This document shows, in pieces, positions 28,924 through 37,797 of a stretch of DNA of 58,163 bases. The translations under genes were made by a program, and so were the position numbers. Within the stretch, counting starts at the first letter, position 1. The number at the start of each line of letters is the position of its first letter. Source of the DNA: an archaeon (lineage in GTDB: Archaea > Thermoproteota > Nitrososphaeria > Nitrososphaerales > Gagatemarchaeaceae); assembly GCA_021791695.1 (NCBI GenBank), contig JAJYWC010000010.1, positions 1 through 58,163 of the forward strand, read 5' to 3'. Below the pieces are notes generated by a model. The model saw only the letters and a list, made by a program, of their open reading frames with translations. It was not told where the DNA came from and made no database searches.

Positions 28924-31900
28924 CTACTTTACGATGCCCGACCCGATCAGGCGCCATCTTTCGGCAATCCTCCTGCTCAGCGCTACGCGCGAGCCCTTCT
29001 CGGCAACGACCGGCTTGCGCAGGTCCACCTCCGCCACCGTGTCCCTGGCCGAGGTGACAGTGCCGAGGGTGGCGGCCGTCCCGATGTTGAGCCTTAGCGA
29101 CTCGCCTACCCTGACCTTATCTACCTTGAGCATCTCTGACGAGCCCACCGCCTGCTCGAAGAGCTGCAGCTCAATGGTGATGTGGGTCTTCGCTGAAGGG
29201 AGGGAGCCGGGCTTACCGAGGAGGCTGCCGACCATCAGGTCGCCCTTGGTGAGGGCCGGGTCGAGGTAAGTCCCGAGAGAGACCAGCCCTCCAGGCCCGA
29301 CCTTCTCCGCCATACCCACGCCCGTGCCGAGGCTCGCGACCTTCGTTATGAGGGGTGCGTACTTTCCGCGGTCGTCAGCCAGCCCCGGTGAGATCTCGAC
29401 CTCGTCCCCGACGCTGAGCTGCCCCCTGGTAACGCTCCCCCCGAGCACGCCTCCCACCAGCGCTGAGATGTCCGTCCCCGGCTTGTTCACGTCGAAGCTC
29501 CTGAGGACCACCATCCGTGCATCGGCAGAGGCATCCCTCTGCGGCGTGGGGATCTTCTCCTCAATCGCCTCGATCAGGGCGTCGATGTTTATCCTGTGCT
29601 GAGCGGAGACCGGGATTATCGGCGCGTCGGCCGCTATCGTCCCCGATAGGAAGTTCTTGATGGCCTCGTGGTTCTTCCTCGCGCCCTCCGAGTCCACCCT
29701 GTCTATCTTGTTCTGGACTATGACCATCTTCTTCATGCCGAGCATCTGGAGGGCGAGCATGTGCTCCCTGGTCTGGGGCATGGGTACGGGCTCGTTCGCA
29801 GCGATCACGAGGATGGCCCCGTCCATCACAGCGGCACCCGCCAGCATGTTGGTCATCAGGCTCTCGTGTCCTGGAGAGTCGACGAAGCTCACAGTCCGCA
29901 GAAGCTGCGTCTCCTGGCCGCACACGGGACAGACTGGGGAGGTGGAGTATGCCTCGGGCGGAGGCGTGTGCGCGCACTTGTAGAATGCGGCGTCCGCGTA
30001 GCCGACCTTGATCGTGATACCTCGCTTCAGTTCCTCGCTGTGAGCGCTGGCCCAGACGCCTGTTATCGCCGCTACCAGGCTGGTGTTGTGGCACACCGTC
30101 GCCCCCTTTCCCGCCACGAAGTTGGCATATTCCGGGACCGCCAGGTCGTAGACCAGACCGCTGTACTCCTCCCTCTTCACCCCGACTATCTTGTCGAACT
30201 CGAGGGAGGACCCGGCCAGGGTCCTGAGCTGCTCAAGCGCTGCGTTGGATGTCCTGAGGGTCGAGGCGGTCGAGACCCTCAGGTGGTCGGCTATGGCCCG
30301 GAGTTCGGCGCCCGAGCCGTCTCTGAGTATTCTTGCGAGCTTCTTTCTGCTGTATCCTAGTCTACTCGCCACGGCTTGGAGCGACGAGGAAGTCAGTTCC
30401 ATGTGCCGCCTGAGGCGGGTCCCGTCCGGAGAAAGCCGGGCTAGCGACTGCTCGACTGCCCCGAGGTGCTGATCGACAGAGTCGATCACCATCAGCAGCT
30501 TTGTCCTTGAGATCCTTCCGGTCTTCGCAGCCCCCTGATAAGCCCCATACCACGGAGCACCCTTCATGTTCGGTATCGCCAGATTCCCTTCGAAGCTCTC
30601 CCTGAGCAGTCCGGAGCTCCTGAACAGAGACCGGAGGGTCTCAACGGCTATCGGGATGCTCATGTCCGTTTCTTTGGTCTGCTTCGGAATTCTGTCGAGG
30701 TAGCTCTTCAACCTGTGTTGGACGCGCGCGTCCTCGAACCCTATCACATCGGCGAAGAGCCTCAGGTCCCTGCGCCCCGAGATCGTGATGCGGCCGTATT
30801 CCTTCAGGCCCTTCTTGGTCCGGCTCTTCTTCACGGAGAACCTTGGGACGATTCCGAACGACTGCAGCAGATACCCGATGATGACTATGTTCTTCTCGTT
30901 GAGCTGTGAGACCATGACCTGCCCCGAGCGTGGGTTGAACTCGCCGTCGAGCGTCAGGAACGCGCGAAGGAAAGCCGCCTTGAGCTCCTTCGGAAGCCTG
31001 CAGACCCAGTCTGCGATTCCGCACCTTGTCTCGTCACCCGGAACGAACCCGAACCTCAACCGCAGGTAGTCTACGAATGGCTTGTTGAATATGGCGAAGG
31101 CCCCCCTTGGGTAGCTCTTCACATTCTGTCCAAGTCTCTCTTCGGTAACCCTAAGGAAATCCCGGAGTATGGCCCGCTGTACGGTCTGCGTTACCGCGAC
31201 TGAGTTGGGTCTGCTGGTGCCTTCTGCCCACACGAACGCGAACCACCTCGCAATGTCTGAGTCGACTCCTGCGATGTGCCTCAGCCTCCTTATCGGCCTG
31301 GTTCGCCCGTGTCTCTGCTCGAGCAGGAACTCGTCCTGCCTGAGGAGGTACCGGGGTCCGGACTTGAAGACCTCCACCACCCTCCGCCTCTCGTCGGAAG
31401 TCGGAGTCCTCGCAGCCTGCGCTATCTTGGAATAGGAGCCGCGGCCGACCCGGGCAAGGACGGACAACCTACTCCTGGAGAGCCCGGTCAGCATCCTCAT
31501 CTTCTCGAATTCGGCGGCCGGCAGTCCGGAGAAGTCCGAAAATCCAGAGGTCAGAGACCTGAGCCTCTCGTAGTCGTCCCAGGTGACGACCTCGTAGAGT
31601 TTCTTGAGCTCGGGCATAGGGTCAGGGAGAGATACGGACTCCTCCAGGGGCACCCGGGACAGGAAGGTCGCGTAGTCACCCGGGCGTATGTCCCTGGCCT
31701 TGACCCACTGCAGCGTCCCTCTTCTGTTGACCAAAAGCGGGTGTTCGGGCGTCACCGTGAGCGACCGGCCGGACTTTCCCGAGACGGTGAACATTGGACC
31801 TGAATAGTCCTCGACGTAGAACATCGACGCCGCTTTCACGGCTTCGAGCTTCGCGTTCAGGCTCACCACGCTGTTGCCGTCGAAACGATAGACCTCTCCG

Positions 31901-32100
31901 CCGTCCACTCGGCTGAGCAGCGTTCCCGTCGTCTTTACCGCTCTGAGTATGTCCGAGCCCGTTACTGGGACGCCGTCCAGCAGGACGTACTGGTCGATCC
32001 TTTGACACTTGCCGTGGTCGACGTGGCCGCTGGTCCCGATGTTACACTCGGGCTGCTTCGGGATACGCCTTATCGGGACTGTCTCTGTCGCTTGCTCCAT
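28924..32100 (-). CDS. eif2g: Translation initiation factor aIF2 subunit gamma, intein-containing precursor
   Basis: A 1058-residue precursor that should splice to a 417-residue GTPase. The N-extein is residues 1-31, ending in the P-loop GTSGHVDHGK. The intein is residues 32-672. The C-extein resumes with TSLVAAITGVWASAHSEELK and includes the zinc motif region CAHTPPP...CPVCG, FVDSPGHESLMTNML (G3), VQNKIDRVDS (NKxD) and the two beta-barrel domains. aIF2-gamma carries initiator tRNA to the ribosome with GTP. It is flanked by rps6e upstream and a PIN gene downstream, the usual archaeal order. Without splicing the P-loop is split and the factor cannot work. Confidence 0.95.
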   Translation of the reverse strand: MEQATETVPIRRIPKQPECNIGTSGHVDHGKCQRIDQYVLLDGVPVTGSDILRAVKTTGTLLSRVDGGEVYRFDGNSVVSLNAKLEAVKAASMFYVEDYSGPMFTVSGKSGRSLTVTPEHPLLVNRRGTLQWVKARDIRPGDYATFLSRVPLEESVSLPDPMPELKKLYEVVTWDDYERLRSLTSGFSDFSGLPAAEFEKMRMLTGLSRSRLSVLARVGRGSYSKIAQAARTPTSDERRRVVEVFKSGPRYLLRQDEFLLEQRHGRTRPIRRLRHIAGVDSDIARWFAFVWAEGTSRPNSVAVTQTVQRAILRDFLRVTEERLGQNVKSYPRGAFAIFNKPFVDYLRLRFGFVPGDETRCGIADWVCRLPKELKAAFLRAFLTLDGEFNPRSGQVMVSQLNEKNIVIIGYLLQSFGIVPRFSVKKSRTKKGLKEYGRITISGRRDLRLFADVIGFEDARVQHRLKSYLDRIPKQTKETDMSIPIAVETLRSLFRSSGLLRESFEGNLAIPNMKGAPWYGAYQGAAKTGRISRTKLLMVIDSVDQHLGAVEQSLARLSPDGTRLRRHMELTSSSLQAVASRLGYSRKKLARILRDGSGAELRAIADHLRVSTASTLRTSNAALEQLRTLAGSSLEFDKIVGVKREEYSGLVYDLAVPEYANFVAGKGATVCHNTSLVAAITGVWASAHSEELKRGITIKVGYADAAFYKCAHTPPPEAYSTSPVCPVCGQETQLLRTVSFVDSPGHESLMTNMLAGAAVMDGAILVIAANEPVPMPQTREHMLALQMLGMKKMVIVQNKIDRVDSEGARKNHEAIKNFLSGTIAADAPIIPVSAQHRINIDALIEAIEEKIPTPQRDASADARMVVLRSFDVNKPGTDISALVGGVLGGSVTRGQLSVGDEVEISPGLADDRGKYAPLITKVASLGTGVGMAEKVGPGGLVSLGTYLDPALTKGDLMVGSLLGKPGSLPSAKTHITIELQLFEQAVGSSEMLKVDKVRVGESLRLNIGTAATLGTVTSARDTVAEVDLRKPVVAEKGSRVALSRRIAERWRLIGSGIVK
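30085..32007 (-). mobile_element. Intein with LAGLIDADG endonuclease in aIF2-gamma, P-loop insertion
   Basis: A 641-residue intein between Lys31 and Thr673 of the precursor. The first residue is Cys32 and the end is CHN before Thr, all the residues needed for splicing. LTVTPEHPLLVN (about residue 114) is block B. Two endonuclease motifs are visible: SDIARWFAFVWAEG near 280-294 and FLRAFLTLDGEFN near 377-389. Between the endonuclease and the C-terminal splicing blocks (GLVYDLAVPEYANFVAG) are about 150 residues with helix-turn-helix-like sequence (LQAVASRLGYSRKKLARIL), which may be DNA-binding. The motifs look intact, so it may still be mobile. Confidence 0.93.
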
Positions 32101-32130
32101 GAGGACCGTTGTCGAGTTTCGAATTTCGGT

Positions 32131-32140
32131 GATAATTAAA
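32131..32140 (-). promoter_or_regulatory. TATA box of aIF2-gamma
   Basis: TTTAATTATC on the minus strand, about 35 bases before ATG 32100; predicted leader about nine bases. Confidence 0.65.
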
Positions 32141-32158
32141 CGTGCTGCGGTCGGACGG

Positions 32159-32500
32159 TTACTCTGCCTTCGCTACGTTGAGCTGGTAGATCTCTTCGGT
32201 GACCGTGCCGCCCCTCACGAGCTTCCTTCTCTTCTCCCCCTCGACGGAGTTCCGGAAGCCGACGCCCTCGGTCATCAGGACGTACCTCTTGCCGCTGCCT
32301 AAAACGTCGCCCCTCATCGGGAACCCCGCCTTGTCGCTCCCGCCCGTGATCTTGACCTTGTAGTTCTGGCCGACGACGCTCAGGTCCACCACTTCGCCCA
32401 CCTTGCGGCCCACGAATATCTGGGCTGTCGAGTCCTTCGCCTCCAGGACCTCGGACTTGCCCGTCTTGGGGTCCGACACGACGATCTTGAACTGGGCCAT
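32159..32500 (-). CDS. rps6e: 30S ribosomal protein S6e
   Basis: A 113-residue protein: MAQFKIVVSDPKTGKSEVLE, FVGRKVGEVVDLSVVGQNYK, ITGGSDKAGFPMRGDVLGSG and RKLVRGGTVTEEIYQLNV are the conserved S6e blocks. The archaeal form lacks the phosphorylated C-terminal tail of the eukaryotic protein, as here. It lies between aIF5B and aIF2-gamma, each with its own TATA box. Confidence 0.96.
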   Translation of the reverse strand: MAQFKIVVSDPKTGKSEVLEAKDSTAQIFVGRKVGEVVDLSVVGQNYKVKITGGSDKAGFPMRGDVLGSGKRYVLMTEGVGFRNSVEGEKRRKLVRGGTVTEEIYQLNVAKAE

Positions 32501-32525
32501 CTTTCGGAGACCCCTCCGGAACGCG

Positions 32526-32534
32526 TTAATAAAT
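32526..32534 (-). promoter_or_regulatory. TATA box of rps6e
   Basis: ATTTATTAA on the minus strand is about 30 bases before ATG 32500, so the mRNA should be nearly leaderless. Confidence 0.65.
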
Positions 32535-32545
32535 GGTAGGTGGGG

Positions 32546-35500
32546 TCAGAACCCGTACATCATATCCTTGACCGAGCGGATGGAGATTATCTCGTTGAGG
32601 GCCTCCTGGTCGTCCTCCTTCAGCGTGCCGGCGAGCTCCCCCTTCAGCAGCTTCACGTCGTGGGAGGTCGGGAAGCTGTAGAGCGAGTCGTTCTCCCGGA
32701 TCTGCCTCCCGAGGGTCGGCCCCCGGACCGATATCGCCACCTGCATCCCCTTGGTCGCTTCCTGGACGGGCTTTGCGTTCTCCTGTATCTGCTCCACCGT
32801 ACCAAGCTCCACGCCCGATGAGTCCATCAGGCGGACCTTGGGTTTCAGCCTCCCGGCGACCACCTCGACCCCGAACACGGCGGGGTCGTTCCTGCGGAAG
32901 AACATCCCGGGAAGGGCCTTCAGCTTCGCCGGAGGGACTATCGTGGAGAGCACGCTGCGCTCGTCATGCTCGCGCTTCGTCGCCGCCCACTGGACGTATC
33001 CCTCTATCGCGTCGTAGATCACGTCCGAGGTGATTATCTGCGCCTTGGCCGCCGCTTCCTTCGCCTCCGGCACGACCTTCACGTCGAACCCGATGATCGC
33101 ACCGAGGTACGGGTCGTGTTCCGCCACGGCCTCGGCCTCGATCATGTCCCTCTTCGTGATGTCGCCGATGTCGGCCATCCTGACGGGGATCTCCCGCTGG
33201 TCGAGCATCCGGATGAGCGCCTCGAGACCGCCGATGTTCCCCGCCTTGACTATCACGCCGTCGATGTCGACCTTCGACACAAGCGTCCCCAGGTCCTTCT
33301 CCGCTTCGCTCTTTATCGTCTGGAACTCCTTCTCGTCATGGAAGGCTATGACCGACGTGCCCGGTATGACTCCGTCCAGTTCGGTCGAGACGAGCTTCAC
33401 GCCCGCCGCCGAGTAGACCTCCTGGACGGGGGTGAACTTGTCGCGAGGATCCCTCATCTCGTCGAGCGGCTTGGGCATGAAGAGCGCCTTCACCTTTGAC
33501 GCTATCGCTCCATCGCGTCTTACCAACACTATCTTATCGCCGACGGCGAGCCTCCCCTCCGTGAGTATGATGTTGGCGGTCTGGCCTATTCCCGTCTCCT
33601 CCTGCAGCTCGAGGATTATTCCGCGCGCCCTGCCCTTCTCGTCGACGGCGACCAGCTTCTCGGAGAGGAACTGCTGCGCCAGTCCTATCAGGACGGCCAG
33701 CAGCTCTGGCATCCCTACCCCGTATCTGGCGGATATCGGGACGATTGAGACCTGCTTGCGGAAGTCCTTCACCCTGTAGAACGCATCCGAGTCGAAACCG
33801 AGCCTTGAGAGCCCGCCGACTACGTTGTAGAGGCGCTCCTCAAGCTCGTCGCTCCACTGGGGCGGCTGCTCCTTTATGACGCTGGCGAGGTACCCCTTCG
33901 ACTCCTTCCTCCAGCCCTTGATCATGTCCACCTTGTTCAGGGCTACGAGGAAGGGGACCTTTCTCTGCTTGAGTATCTCGATGCTCTCGAGTGTCTGGTT
34001 CTCGAGCCCCTTCAGGACGTCCACGAGCACTATTGCGATGTCCGCCGCCGACCCTCCTCGCATCCTCAGGTTCGAGAATACTTCGTGCCCCGGGGTGTCA
34101 ATGATCAGGAGGCCAGGGATTTTGAGCTGGGCCCCCGTCTTGTTCATTATCTGGCCGGAGATCGATGTCAGCGTCTCCATCGGGAAGAAGCTGGCCCCGA
34201 TCTCCTGGGTTATCCCGCCGGCCTCCCTTCCCTGGACGCTAGTACCGCGAAGCTTGTCCAAGAAGCTTGTGTTGTGGATGATGAGGCCGTTCGCAAGGAA
34301 GTTATGGCAGTCGTCAACGGTGAAGTCATAAACGAAACACCCTCCTTGAATCTCCTCCACGGAAGTGACCTGAACGGTAGCGAAGTCCTCAATCAGCCTC
34401 TGAGCGGACTGGTTCTCATAGGTCGGTACGACGGATGGCAGTCTCCTGAGCACATATCTGCTGAGCTTCTGGTGCGCTTCGGAGCTGGTCAGCTGGAACT
34501 GGTCATCCCATATGGCCCGGTTGGAGTCCATGACAGACCTCAGGAAGTCGCCCGGAATCGGAGTTGTGTCGAAGACTCGATTTGTCTCCGAACTAGACAG
34601 GGTCCTTCTTGCACAGAGCATCTTCTCCTTGTCCTTGAAACCCACATGCTTGAGGAAAGCAGAGATGTTGTCCTTTCCGCTGATGAAAATCTCCCGGGAG
34701 CGAGTCTTCTTTCCGGAATAGGACAGGCATCCGAACCGTTGCAGCAGCATCGGGAGCTGCTTCATGAGCATCCGACTCTCGCAACCCGCACCGACGTACT
34801 TCCCTTCCTGGACGAAGCCTTCCGCGTCAAAGAAGCCGCGCAAGAACGCCGCTACCTGAAGGTCGGGCATGATGGAGACGAGCTCGGGGATCCTCAGGTT
34901 CCTGGTCTTGTCACTCTCGGGATACTCGAAGGCCTCGGTCAGGAACCTTGCGAGGGTCTTGCCCCCTCTGTGTGAAACGATGCAGAAGGACCTGCGCCAT
35001 GCTCGGCTCGCTCCCACCCCGAAGGCTGACATCAATGAGTCCAGGAAAGCATCCATTATGCTGTCGGAGGAGTTGGCCAAGTCGCCACTTCCGGCAACAC
35101 CATCCCCATACAGCAGGCCGACGACATAGGAGAGCGACTCAAAGCCCCGGCCATCCCTCGGCAGTCTTATCCACGGAGACCCCTGTGAGGCCCGGCGCTT
35201 TGGCGAGGAGAATCTTATTCCTTCCACGGAGTCATAAGCCAATGCGAGCGGGATTCCCAGAGACGCAGCGAGTTTGCGGAAGGCGCCAGCCCGATAGTAG
35301 CCTTGCCTAACATGAAACATCAACTCTTTGTCTCCAATCTCGGCTCCGACCCTCTCGCGACCTCCCCGGGAGAAGTCAGCTATCCGTTTGTTCAGGGAAG
35401 AAGAGACTCTGACAAGGAAGTCGTCCGAGAGCCTGAGCAGAATCTCGGACTTTAAGTTGAGGAGGTCGCCTTCGGCGGTGCAGGTCTTCGAAGGGAGAAC

Positions 35501-35908
35501 CAGGCGGTCGCCCAATGCGAGATTCTCCGCCTCGACGTATCTCAGCTCGCCCTCCTTCGACATCGACAGGAACTTGTGCTCAGGAGTACACTTTACTGAA
35601 TAGCCGGCCTTCGTCGAGACGTTGACGAGCCTGTCCGTCTTGAGCTTCCAAACGTGCGAGACCTTTCGTGGAGCAACGTTTCCCTCTTTGTCTACCGAAA
35701 TCACGCGCAGGTCTCGCGCCTCGTAGACCTCGCCATCCGGCCGATGCGACGCTGCACCGGTCTTGTAGGTCTCGAAGACCTGCCTCGCTTCAAGAATCCT
35801 TCCACCCGCCAGCTGGATTAGCGTGTCTTCACTGACACATTTGCCCGCGTCGGTGTGCCCTAGTACGACGACTACCGGTTGACGCAGGGGCTGCGCGGGT
35901 TGGGACAC
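32546..35908 (-). CDS. infB: Translation initiation factor aIF5B, intein-containing precursor
   Basis: A 1120-residue precursor expected to splice to 597 residues, the normal size for archaeal aIF5B. The N-extein (1-23) starts at GTG 35908 and ends GHTDAGK. The intein is residues 24-546. The C-extein begins TSFLDKLRGTSVQGREAGGI and has FPMETL, IIDTPGHEVFSNLRMRGG (G3), VALNKVDMIKGW (NKxD), then domains II-IV. The P-loop reads GHTDAGKT instead of the common GHVDHGKT. aIF5B promotes subunit joining. It is the first gene of the rps6e/aIF2-gamma block and has its own TATA box. Confidence 0.95.
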   Translation of the reverse strand: MSQPAQPLRQPVVVVLGHTDAGKCVSEDTLIQLAGGRILEARQVFETYKTGAASHRPDGEVYEARDLRVISVDKEGNVAPRKVSHVWKLKTDRLVNVSTKAGYSVKCTPEHKFLSMSKEGELRYVEAENLALGDRLVLPSKTCTAEGDLLNLKSEILLRLSDDFLVRVSSSLNKRIADFSRGGRERVGAEIGDKELMFHVRQGYYRAGAFRKLAASLGIPLALAYDSVEGIRFSSPKRRASQGSPWIRLPRDGRGFESLSYVVGLLYGDGVAGSGDLANSSDSIMDAFLDSLMSAFGVGASRAWRRSFCIVSHRGGKTLARFLTEAFEYPESDKTRNLRIPELVSIMPDLQVAAFLRGFFDAEGFVQEGKYVGAGCESRMLMKQLPMLLQRFGCLSYSGKKTRSREIFISGKDNISAFLKHVGFKDKEKMLCARRTLSSSETNRVFDTTPIPGDFLRSVMDSNRAIWDDQFQLTSSEAHQKLSRYVLRRLPSVVPTYENQSAQRLIEDFATVQVTSVEEIQGGCFVYDFTVDDCHNFLANGLIIHNTSFLDKLRGTSVQGREAGGITQEIGASFFPMETLTSISGQIMNKTGAQLKIPGLLIIDTPGHEVFSNLRMRGGSAADIAIVLVDVLKGLENQTLESIEILKQRKVPFLVALNKVDMIKGWRKESKGYLASVIKEQPPQWSDELEERLYNVVGGLSRLGFDSDAFYRVKDFRKQVSIVPISARYGVGMPELLAVLIGLAQQFLSEKLVAVDEKGRARGIILELQEETGIGQTANIILTEGRLAVGDKIVLVRRDGAIASKVKALFMPKPLDEMRDPRDKFTPVQEVYSAAGVKLVSTELDGVIPGTSVIAFHDEKEFQTIKSEAEKDLGTLVSKVDIDGVIVKAGNIGGLEALIRMLDQREIPVRMADIGDITKRDMIEAEAVAEHDPYLGAIIGFDVKVVPEAKEAAAKAQIITSDVIYDAIEGYVQWAATKREHDERSVLSTIVPPAKLKALPGMFFRRNDPAVFGVEVVAGRLKPKVRLMDSSGVELGTVEQIQENAKPVQEATKGMQVAISVRGPTLGRQIRENDSLYSFPTSHDVKLLKGELAGTLKEDDQEALNEIISIRSVKDMMYGF
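34271..35839 (-). mobile_element. Intein with LAGLIDADG endonuclease in aIF5B, P-loop insertion
   Basis: A 523-residue intein between Lys23 and Thr547. It opens CVSEDTLIQLAGGRILEA (block A with catalytic Cys). VKCTPEHKFLS near 105 is block B. SYVVGLLYGDGVAG (about 260-273) and AAFLRGFFDAEGFVQ (about 353-367) are the two LAGLIDADG helices. CFVYDFTVDDCHNFLANG and IIHN before Thr are the C-terminal blocks F and G. All splicing residues are present. It occupies the same P-loop position as the intein in aIF2-gamma, although the two inteins differ greatly in length and in the sequence I can compare by eye. Confidence 0.94.
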
Positions 35909-35987: not shown

Positions 35988-37742
35988 TCATCGGGGGATC
36001 ACGGGCAGGATGACGCGCGAAGGACGGCTCGCGTCGTGGTAGACGTGCTGCTCGGCCACGACCGGCCTCGACTCCATCGCAGGCTGCTTCGCGGTGTTCA
36101 TGTTCCTCTCGAAGTGGGGGAAGTTGCTGCTAGAGACCTCGAGCCTGACCTGGTGCCCCTTCAGGAAGAGGTTGCTCGTCGACCAGAGGTCGATGGTGTA
36201 CTCGTAGACCCTGCCCGGCTTGATGAGCTTCGGCCTCCTGGTGCTCTCCCTGTAGCGCGCACGGATGATGCCCTGAGCGAGGAGCTGCGCGTAGCCGCAC
36301 TCCCACACGTCGACCAGCTTGGCGGTGAAGTCCGTGTCGGCGGCAGAGGTCGCGGCGAAGAGCTTCAGCACGACGCGGCCGGTCACCTCGACAGGCTTCT
36401 TCAGCGGGGGCGTGCTGTACACCAGCACATCCTTCCTCTTCTCGACGCAGGTCTGGTCGTACGGCCCGGCAGGATTGAAAGTTGCGTCGCAGCAGAGCGC
36501 CCCTCCGGCGGTTGGAACTGGGTCGAGGGGGTCGTAGAGGAAGCGGTCCGGCCGCTCGTCCTTGGGGGCGACGGTCCCGAGCGAGCCGTCTCCATCGAGC
36601 GTGTTCGCGGAGCCGCCGCTGTGGATGTAGTAGTCTGTGTACTTCGTCCTCGCGAGCGGCCAGTCGTCCTCGTCCCTCCAGACGTTCTCCCCCATCACGA
36701 ATATCCTGACCGGAGGGGTCTTCGCCTGCGGACCTCCCTTCAGCCACGAGTCGTACCAGTCGAGGACCATACCCTCGACGTCGGTCGTCGCGTACGCGGC
36801 TTCGTGTCCGAAGTCTACGTCTCCGATCAGTTTGCCGAGGTCGGAGGCTCGCCCCAGGTGCATCCAGGGCCCTATCACGAGCTTCTGCTGCCTGCTCTCC
36901 TTTGTCTTGCCGTGCTTGCGCATCCTGAGGAAGTTGCTTATCGTCCCCTCGAGGAATATGTCGTACCAGCCGCCGAGGTTGAACGCCGGCGCGCTTATCC
37001 TGCTGTGGAAGTTCTCGAGGTTGATCTCTTCCCAGTAGGCGTCCTGCTCGGGGTGGGAGACCCAGTCGTAGAAGAACTCGGCGTTGCCCCTGAAGTAGGG
37101 GACCTTGGCGACCGGGATGTGGTCGAAGACCTTCTCGGCCATTGCGTCCCTGACGTCCAGCATCCTCTCGGCCTCCTCCTTCTTCCCCCTCCGGAAGAGC
37201 TCGGTCGCGCAGAACGAGTTGACGCACCACGACTCGACGAAGGAGAGCTGCAGCGCCCCTCCCCTGTAGAACCACTCTTCGTAGTAGTTGGCGGCCGTCA
37301 GCGCGGGGAAGATGCACTTCAGGTGGGGCGCCCCGGAGGCGGCCGCGAGCCACTGCGTGGCTCCGACGTACGAACCCCCGTACATGCCGACCTTACCGTT
37401 CGACCATGGCTGCGTCCCGCACCACTCGACCGTGTCGTAACCGTCGTCTATCTCCTGACGGAACGGGTCGAACCTGCCCTCGGAGTTCCACCTCCCCCTG
37501 ACGTCCTGGATCACGACCGCGTAGCCCCTGCTCACGGCCCTTATGGGCCGCATCGAGAGGTTCGCGAACCCGCCGATCCCCTTGTCGTAAGGGGTCCTCT
37601 GAAGGATGACCGGATGCCTGCCCGCCCCTCTCGGCCTGTAGACGTCCGCCCTCGTGATCAGGCCGTCGCGCATCTTTATTGGAACGTTGAGGTCTATCGT
37701 CGCTTCGACTTCATCTTGGCTCCCCGGCCAGGATTCCGACAT
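35988..37742 (-). CDS. CocE/NonD-family hydrolase (X-Pro dipeptidyl-peptidase-like)
   Basis: A 584-residue alpha/beta hydrolase. GLITRADVYRPRGAGRHPVI and RTPYDKG are the typical N-terminal blocks, and WSNGKVGMYGGSYVGATQWL holds the nucleophile elbow with Ser in GGSYVG. VLDWYDSWLKGGP follows the helical cap. The C-terminal jelly-roll domain has KLVDVWECGYAQLLAQGIIR and HQVRLEVSSSNFPHFERNMN. The family cleaves esters or peptides with an N-terminal X-Pro. No signal peptide is seen, so it should be cytoplasmic. It sits between aIF5B and ndk, where most archaea have no such gene. Its own TATA-like sequence is near 37767-37775. Confidence 0.88.
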   Translation of the reverse strand: MSESWPGSQDEVEATIDLNVPIKMRDGLITRADVYRPRGAGRHPVILQRTPYDKGIGGFANLSMRPIRAVSRGYAVVIQDVRGRWNSEGRFDPFRQEIDDGYDTVEWCGTQPWSNGKVGMYGGSYVGATQWLAAASGAPHLKCIFPALTAANYYEEWFYRGGALQLSFVESWCVNSFCATELFRRGKKEEAERMLDVRDAMAEKVFDHIPVAKVPYFRGNAEFFYDWVSHPEQDAYWEEINLENFHSRISAPAFNLGGWYDIFLEGTISNFLRMRKHGKTKESRQQKLVIGPWMHLGRASDLGKLIGDVDFGHEAAYATTDVEGMVLDWYDSWLKGGPQAKTPPVRIFVMGENVWRDEDDWPLARTKYTDYYIHSGGSANTLDGDGSLGTVAPKDERPDRFLYDPLDPVPTAGGALCCDATFNPAGPYDQTCVEKRKDVLVYSTPPLKKPVEVTGRVVLKLFAATSAADTDFTAKLVDVWECGYAQLLAQGIIRARYRESTRRPKLIKPGRVYEYTIDLWSTSNLFLKGHQVRLEVSSSNFPHFERNMNTAKQPAMESRPVVAEQHVYHDASRPSRVILPVIPR

Positions 37743-37797
37743 GCGCCCGCACAGGCGTCGGACGATTCATAAGCGTTGAATCCCTGAAAGAGAGAGG

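Follow-up and report, generated by a model that had tools for sequence, protein, structure and literature searches.

Why do two neighbouring genes for translation initiation GTPases, aIF2-gamma and aIF5B, each carry an intein at the same codon of the P-loop? The question is raised by a 58,163-nucleotide stretch of archaeal DNA, positions 1 to 58,163 of contig JAJYWC010000010.1 (assembly GCA_021791695.1; hereafter the window), in which an earlier note had pointed out the pair. We find that these are very probably two independently acquired full-length homing inteins, i.e. ordinary mobile elements. The analysis establishes their make-up in sequence, a predicted fold, recurrent gains and losses, separate ancestry and, for the aIF2-gamma intein, horizontal transfer. 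The window belongs to a metagenome-assembled genome (MAG) of a Nitrososphaerota archaeon (G000), which comprises 1.81 Mb in 77 contigs and is 71.8% complete and 3.1% contaminated. Both precursors are uninterrupted single open reading frames (ORFs), in frame and on the minus strand, and are laid out as follows:

28924..32100, minus strand: aIF2-gamma precursor, 1058 amino acids; exteins match the NCBIfam profiles TIGR03680 (563.8 bits, cut-off 514.5) and PRK04000 (577.9 bits)
30085..32007, minus strand: aIF2-gamma P-loop intein, 641 amino acids, Cys1 ... His-Asn, Thr+1; from alignment and AlphaFold2 model
31633..32007, minus strand: its N-terminal splicing part, blocks A and B (TPEH); PF14890 and model strands, approximate boundary
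30688..31290, minus strand: its LAGLIDADG homing-endonuclease domain; PF14528 and alignment, approximate boundary
30265..30423, minus strand: its helix-turn-helix insertion, between endonuclease and block F; PF13560 (31.6 bits, cut-off 27) and model helices
30085..30210, minus strand: its C-terminal splicing part, blocks F and G (VYDLAVPEYANFVAGKGATVCHN); alignment, with Ala at the block-F His position
32546..35908, minus strand: aIF5B (archaeal IF2/eIF5B) precursor, 1120 amino acids, GTG start; matches PRK14845, and its exteins the NCBIfam profile TIGR00491 (623.6 bits, cut-off 554.75)
34271..35839, minus strand: aIF5B P-loop intein, 523 amino acids, Cys1 ... His-Asn, Thr+1; from empty sites in the same genus
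35480..35839, minus strand: its N-terminal splicing (HINT) part, blocks A and B (CVSEDT..., TPEH); PF14890 and TIGR01445, approximate boundary
34625..35137, minus strand: its LAGLIDADG homing-endonuclease domain; PF14528 and alignment, approximate boundary
34271..34402, minus strand: its C-terminal splicing part, blocks F and G (VYDFTVDDCHNFLANGLIIHN); alignment

The P-loop is interrupted at the identical position in both hosts, GK/T (slashes mark junctions), splitting Lys from Thr. With a slash likewise at each end of the intein, the aIF2-gamma junctions read GHVDHGK/C...VCHN/TSL in the protein and GGCAAG/TGT...CACAAC/ACC in the DNA, and those of aIF5B GHTDAGK/C...IIHN/TSF and GGCAAA/TGT...CACAAC/ACA. 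Empty alleles in relatives of the same genus, GHVDHGK/TSLV and GHTDAGK/TSFL respectively, fix both intein boundaries independently. The comparison of allele sites that the earlier note had suggested thus finds empty sites exactly at the predicted junctions, and bears out its view of two real inteins at an identical site between 30085 and 35839, coordinates that coincide exactly with the C-terminal end of the aIF2-gamma intein (30085) and the N-terminal end of that of aIF5B (35839). Without its intein each gene encodes a conserved host protein whose exteins pass the family cut-offs, as expected of in-frame insertions.

Both elements match the Intein_splicing profile PF14890 (cut-off 35.8 bits), with 60.9 bits for the aIF2-gamma intein and 77.8 bits for the aIF5B intein (residues 37-523; TIGR01445 covers residues 1-91), and both exceed the cut-off for LAGLIDADG_3. 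Each carries two LAGLIDADG motifs with catalytic acids, E262 (FVWAEG) and D354 (FLTLDG) in the window's aIF2-gamma intein, D246 (LLYGDG) and E340 (FFDAEG) in the aIF5B intein. Cys1, the block-B TPEH, the terminal HN and Thr+1 are likewise present in both, and the claim of a full set of splicing residues stands but for one position in block F: the aIF5B intein (CHNFLAN) has both Asp and His, while the aIF2-gamma intein (YANFVAG) keeps Asp621 and has Ala at the His position, which is variable across the whole aIF2-gamma intein clade. On this evidence the two elements are predicted Cys1...His-Asn/Thr inteins of class-1 type with LAGLIDADG domains. Because all major intein blocks are present and relatives have an empty site at the same codon, chance is ruled out. 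The AlphaFold2 model, made of the aIF2-gamma intein, has a mean predicted local distance difference test (pLDDT) of 89.5 and a predicted template modelling score (pTM) of 0.85; it finds intein crystal structures with E values down to 2e-22, the best PDB matches being the TliVMA intein (7qss) and PI-PkoII (2cw7), and from the model we are confident in predicting an intein/endonuclease fold. The two were also said to be very different in length and domain make-up. This is true of length (641 versus 523 amino acids) and less so of make-up, as both consist of HINT and LAGLIDADG parts and differ by one extra insertion bearing the helix-turn-helix.

Further copies of aIF2-gamma or aIF5B were not found in the assembled part of the genome, where paralogues are only 29-33% identical. 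From what is known of their function the two genes are essential, and the assembled part holds a single copy of each, so that both proteins need splicing, in line with the earlier note's view that both GTPases are held to it.

Are the inteins, then, a pair in any evolutionary sense? Of 46 family genomes, 15 carry the aIF2-gamma intein and 12 that of aIF5B. Among the 31 family genomes in which both loci are readable, 3 have both inteins, 8 only that of aIF2-gamma, 5 only that of aIF5B and 15 neither; 2.8 genomes with both are expected by chance (Fisher p = 1), and the presence of the two inteins is independent across genomes. Within the genus, the two inteins do not occur together in any of the seven sequenced congeners: two have the aIF2-gamma intein only (G005, G006), one the aIF5B intein only (G004) and four neither (G001, G002, G003, G007). 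In order-level relatives every complete aIF2-gamma and aIF5B gene is of normal frame length. Presence of the aIF2-gamma intein changes at least nine times on the C-extein tree, six of these changes being forced by well-supported branches, and presence of the aIF5B intein changes five times on the host tree of a 24-genome subset. With these 9 and 5 changes and without joint retention, the pattern is not the retention by descent expected of a beneficial element.

Movement of the aIF2-gamma intein can be followed directly. In two relatives, G015 and G020, the inteins are 95.2% identical in nucleotide sequence while the C-exteins are 79.7% identical over their first 300 nucleotides, and synonymous divergence (dS) is 0.14 in the intein versus 1.27 in the C-extein. 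This is recent horizontal homing of the intein, the gene itself not having moved. For this pair the ratio of nonsynonymous to synonymous divergence (dN/dS), about 0.05 for the splicing part and about 0.17 for the endonuclease part, indicates purifying selection on both. A second comparison concerns G000 and its congener G006, whose exteins are 91% identical (dS 1.02 in the aIF2-gamma C-extein) and whose inteins are only 51% identical and synonymously saturated. In the host gene tree the two genomes group together (98/96), whereas the intein tree joins G006 with G005 (97/96) and disfavours grouping G000 with G006 (approximately unbiased (AU) test, p = 0.023). This conflict, together with saturated inteins in less diverged exteins, indicates that G000 and G006 probably acquired their aIF2-gamma inteins separately. 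The C-extein itself is strongly conserved between them (dN/dS about 0.06), as expected if spliced aIF2-gamma protein is made. Homing is therefore supported by the dS contrast and by patchy presence at both loci, the direct evidence of transfer being for the aIF2-gamma intein only.

An apparent co-conversion in three further genomes was considered and dropped, because misassembly or strain mixture fits as well. G067 carries a different intein, yet its C-extein is 99.6% identical to that of G020 over the last 264 nucleotides before the contig end (L225), and G068 and G020 share 99.9% identity along 17.7 kb, differing only in the part that precedes the intein (L222, L223). The G067 contig stops 86 codons past the intein, and the mismatch between G068 and G020 lies only beside a contig end. 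Viral contigs scanned for either intein gave short, weak matches to general intein blocks only, and neither allele was found among them.

Some observations weigh against the reading of the two inteins as full-length homing elements acquired independently. All data come from MAGs. The AU p value is modest and the tree has long branches. The missing block-F His could slow Asn cyclisation in the aIF2-gamma intein. Finally, a catalytic acid is lost or altered in the aIF2-gamma inteins of three relatives (G005, G067, G061), so that endonuclease activity is not to be assumed. Homing elements pass through a cycle of gain, degeneration and loss, and such acid losses are expected from it.

The least improbable alternative is the regulatory one, in which splicing of both inteins answers a growth or stress signal and thereby co-regulates initiation capacity. 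Both genes serve initiation and are almost adjacent on the same strand, the GTP site of each is disabled by its intein, and conditional splicing is documented elsewhere, for example for the Pyrococcus horikoshii RadA and mycobacterial DnaB inteins (PMC5790916, PMC6195587). Nevertheless, the distribution at the two loci is patchy and independent, with no congener carrying both, and such frequent turnover of the inteins counts against any fixed benefit to the host, the same argument having been made for haloarchaeal MCM inteins (PMC10643990). The simpler selfish explanation accounts for all data. We therefore consider a regulatory pair unlikely, and it is very doubtful that translation start is limited post-translationally by conditional splicing of both initiation GTPases, through two P-loop inteins at once. 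The proposal of the earlier note that the pair couples initiation capacity to growth state as a coordinated device is accordingly not upheld.

Could one intein instead derive from the other, by ectopic homing between similar P-loops within the G000 lineage? The GK/T position is the same, the genes are neighbours and the two inteins show weak homology (24% identity, E = 8e-11). Moreover, aIF5B-type inteins group with EF-2 inteins at the same position, which makes long-term movement between GTPase P-loops plausible. However, the aIF2-gamma inteins form one clade (100/100) that includes a copy from Bathyarchaeota, and the aIF5B inteins cluster with those found at the P-loops of aIF5B and EF-2 in other Thermoproteota (95/89); in a second tree, with aIF5B mini-inteins added, they group with the aIF5B inteins of other Thermoproteota families (95/93). 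Any common origin is thus far older than the genus of G000, and ectopic homing within its lineage is highly improbable. The intein trees reject a recent copying event between the two, as the earlier note had also concluded. The placement of the aIF2-gamma clade among other inteins has supports of 81-89%, with long branches. Its Bathyarchaeota member, in the MAG Bathyarchaeota archaeon ILS 300 (WUQV01000107.1; L163), sits at the same site of aIF2-gamma, is 36% identical and lies in a different gene neighbourhood; the named relatives of the window's aIF2-gamma intein are Nitrososphaerota/Thaumarchaeota MAGs.

That the arrangement is an artefact, with misjoined intein-bearing pieces or a contaminant contig in a fragmented MAG, is a negligible prospect given that both ORFs are open and in frame, that the same alleles recur in 15 and 12 family genomes whose assemblies are independent and publicly recorded, and that G006 has both genes close together in a different intein state.

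Taken as two independently acquired homing inteins, the elements would work as follows; we infer splicing, endonuclease cutting and the exact chemistry from sequence. Each intein would be translated inside its host GTPase, where it separates the invariant P-loop residues Lys and Thr, and the unspliced precursor should not bind GTP. Excision would proceed by class-1 splicing, with an acyl shift at Cys1, transesterification at Thr+1 and Asn cyclisation, releasing the intact aIF2-gamma or aIF5B that the cell needs to initiate translation. The elements would persist because the LAGLIDADG endonuclease cuts intein-free alleles, followed by gene conversion. A conserved DNA target and the lethality of imprecise loss would explain the P-loop as insertion site. 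Inteins in two adjacent genes would be an occasional outcome in a very intein-rich genome, making a joint function unnecessary.

This richness is considerable. The 72%-complete G000 carries about 15 inteins (contigs C4, C16, C19, C32, C36, C55, C61 and C64; loci L129-L137). Their hosts, with names read from sequence, are an Mrp-type ATPase, MCM, topoisomerase VI A (two inteins), a radical-SAM protein cut by a contig end, a TadA/FlaI-type ATPase (three), a glycosyltransferase, PolB, NuoB (two), HerA, aIF2-gamma and aIF5B. Matches to the Intein_splicing profile, of which one intein can yield two, are much commoner in the family (19 in G000, 0-12 in its relatives) than elsewhere in the order, where 24 genomes gave 0-5. 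For 18 Thaumarchaeota genomes, a published table gives one single-intein gene (PMC10643990). Given so many inteins, a pair in adjacent genes calls for no particular explanation; more unusual than the aIF2-gamma/aIF5B pair is how rich in inteins this thaumarchaeal family is.

Two of the other hosts deserve mention. A NuoB-like ORF of 1036 amino acids (L136, G000:C19:1-6000) contains two inteins, each starting at a conserved cysteine of an Fe-S motif (ETAC/C, AMGA/C). A 2186-amino-acid ORF (L133, G000:C61:19500-28500) encodes a TadA/FlaI-type secretion ATPase with three inteins, of which one has Ser1 and sits at the P-loop GK/T; a relative in G001 (L114) has at least two of the three as well.

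These results add aIF2-gamma to the genes in which we see P-loop inteins; its intein has homed recently from species to species and is also present in a second class of archaea. In an intein-rich family, several steps of one pathway can become interrupted by chance, a pattern that cautions against inferring regulation from co-occurrence. Congeners with and without each intein offer natural material on the cost of splicing.

Within the window, the two precursor genes were described as neighbours. They do share a region and a strand, with one ORF in between:

32159..32500, minus strand: ribosomal protein S6e-like ORF between aIF5B and aIF2-gamma; ORF call, named by eye

Upstream of aIF5B, a 578-amino-acid open frame (36036-37772, plus strand) runs antisense to a 584-amino-acid ORF (35988-37742, minus strand) and is probably a by-product of high G+C codon use.

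How do the two inteins compare with known systems? That of aIF5B is a known allele, sharing host gene and P-loop site with NCBIfam NF011418/PRK14845 (archaeal IF-2 with intein); the window's precursor scores 809.8 bits against PRK14845 (curated cut-off 756), and its intein alone matches the intein part of that family with E = 1e-39. Inteins of eIF5B are also listed in fungi (PMC5784728). We scanned 398 genomes of the phylum for the junction pattern HVDxGK/C, which misses the window's own GHTDAGK aIF5B site and the GHIDHGK of G431, and found it in aIF5B in 10 genomes, in EF-2 in 3 and in aIF2-gamma in the window's genome only. Three GK/C matches (G081, G037, G364) were set aside, their hosts being no recognisable GTPase. 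In all, 11 of the 398 sampled genomes besides G000 have aIF5B P-loop inteins, so the aIF5B P-loop is a widely used intein site and that of aIF2-gamma a rare one. We take aIF2-gamma to be a new host for elements of a known kind, its intein being seen only in the window's family and one Bathyarchaeota MAG; no paper naming such an intein was found in the literature searched, which is weak evidence of absence as InBase and subscription papers lay outside it.

In other sampled Thermoproteota the aIF5B copies are often mini-inteins of 156-172 amino acids, in contrast to the window's 523-residue copy with LAGLIDADG, which falls in a family-specific clade (98/92). Such mini-inteins in other families (L212-L216, L218, L221) have no room for an endonuclease. 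Outside its own allele, the window's aIF5B intein is most closely related (E about 1e-57) to the EF-2 P-loop intein (GK/C...HN/T; family f72, G395, G422, G454), which interrupts a different translational GTPase at the homologous position and belongs to a separate clade (100/100). The EF-2 intein occurs in one genus of another family (L197-L199, L205-L207). For the aIF2-gamma intein, the best solved-structure matches by both profile and fold are the archaeal V/A-ATPase subunit A P-loop inteins (TliVMA 7qss, PhoVMA 7qst, TvoVMA 4o1s), which share the GK/T position and Cys1. They form a separate clade, are about 16% identical in the structural match, and are shorter (432 versus 641 residues), without the extra helical, helix-turn-helix stretch. 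As to the arrangement, the haloarchaeal MCM-a and MCM-d inteins likewise are two homing inteins close together in essential machinery, with frequent gain, loss and transfer and with evidence of co-homing absent (PMC10643990). Those two inteins share one gene, whereas the window's inteins occupy two adjacent ones.

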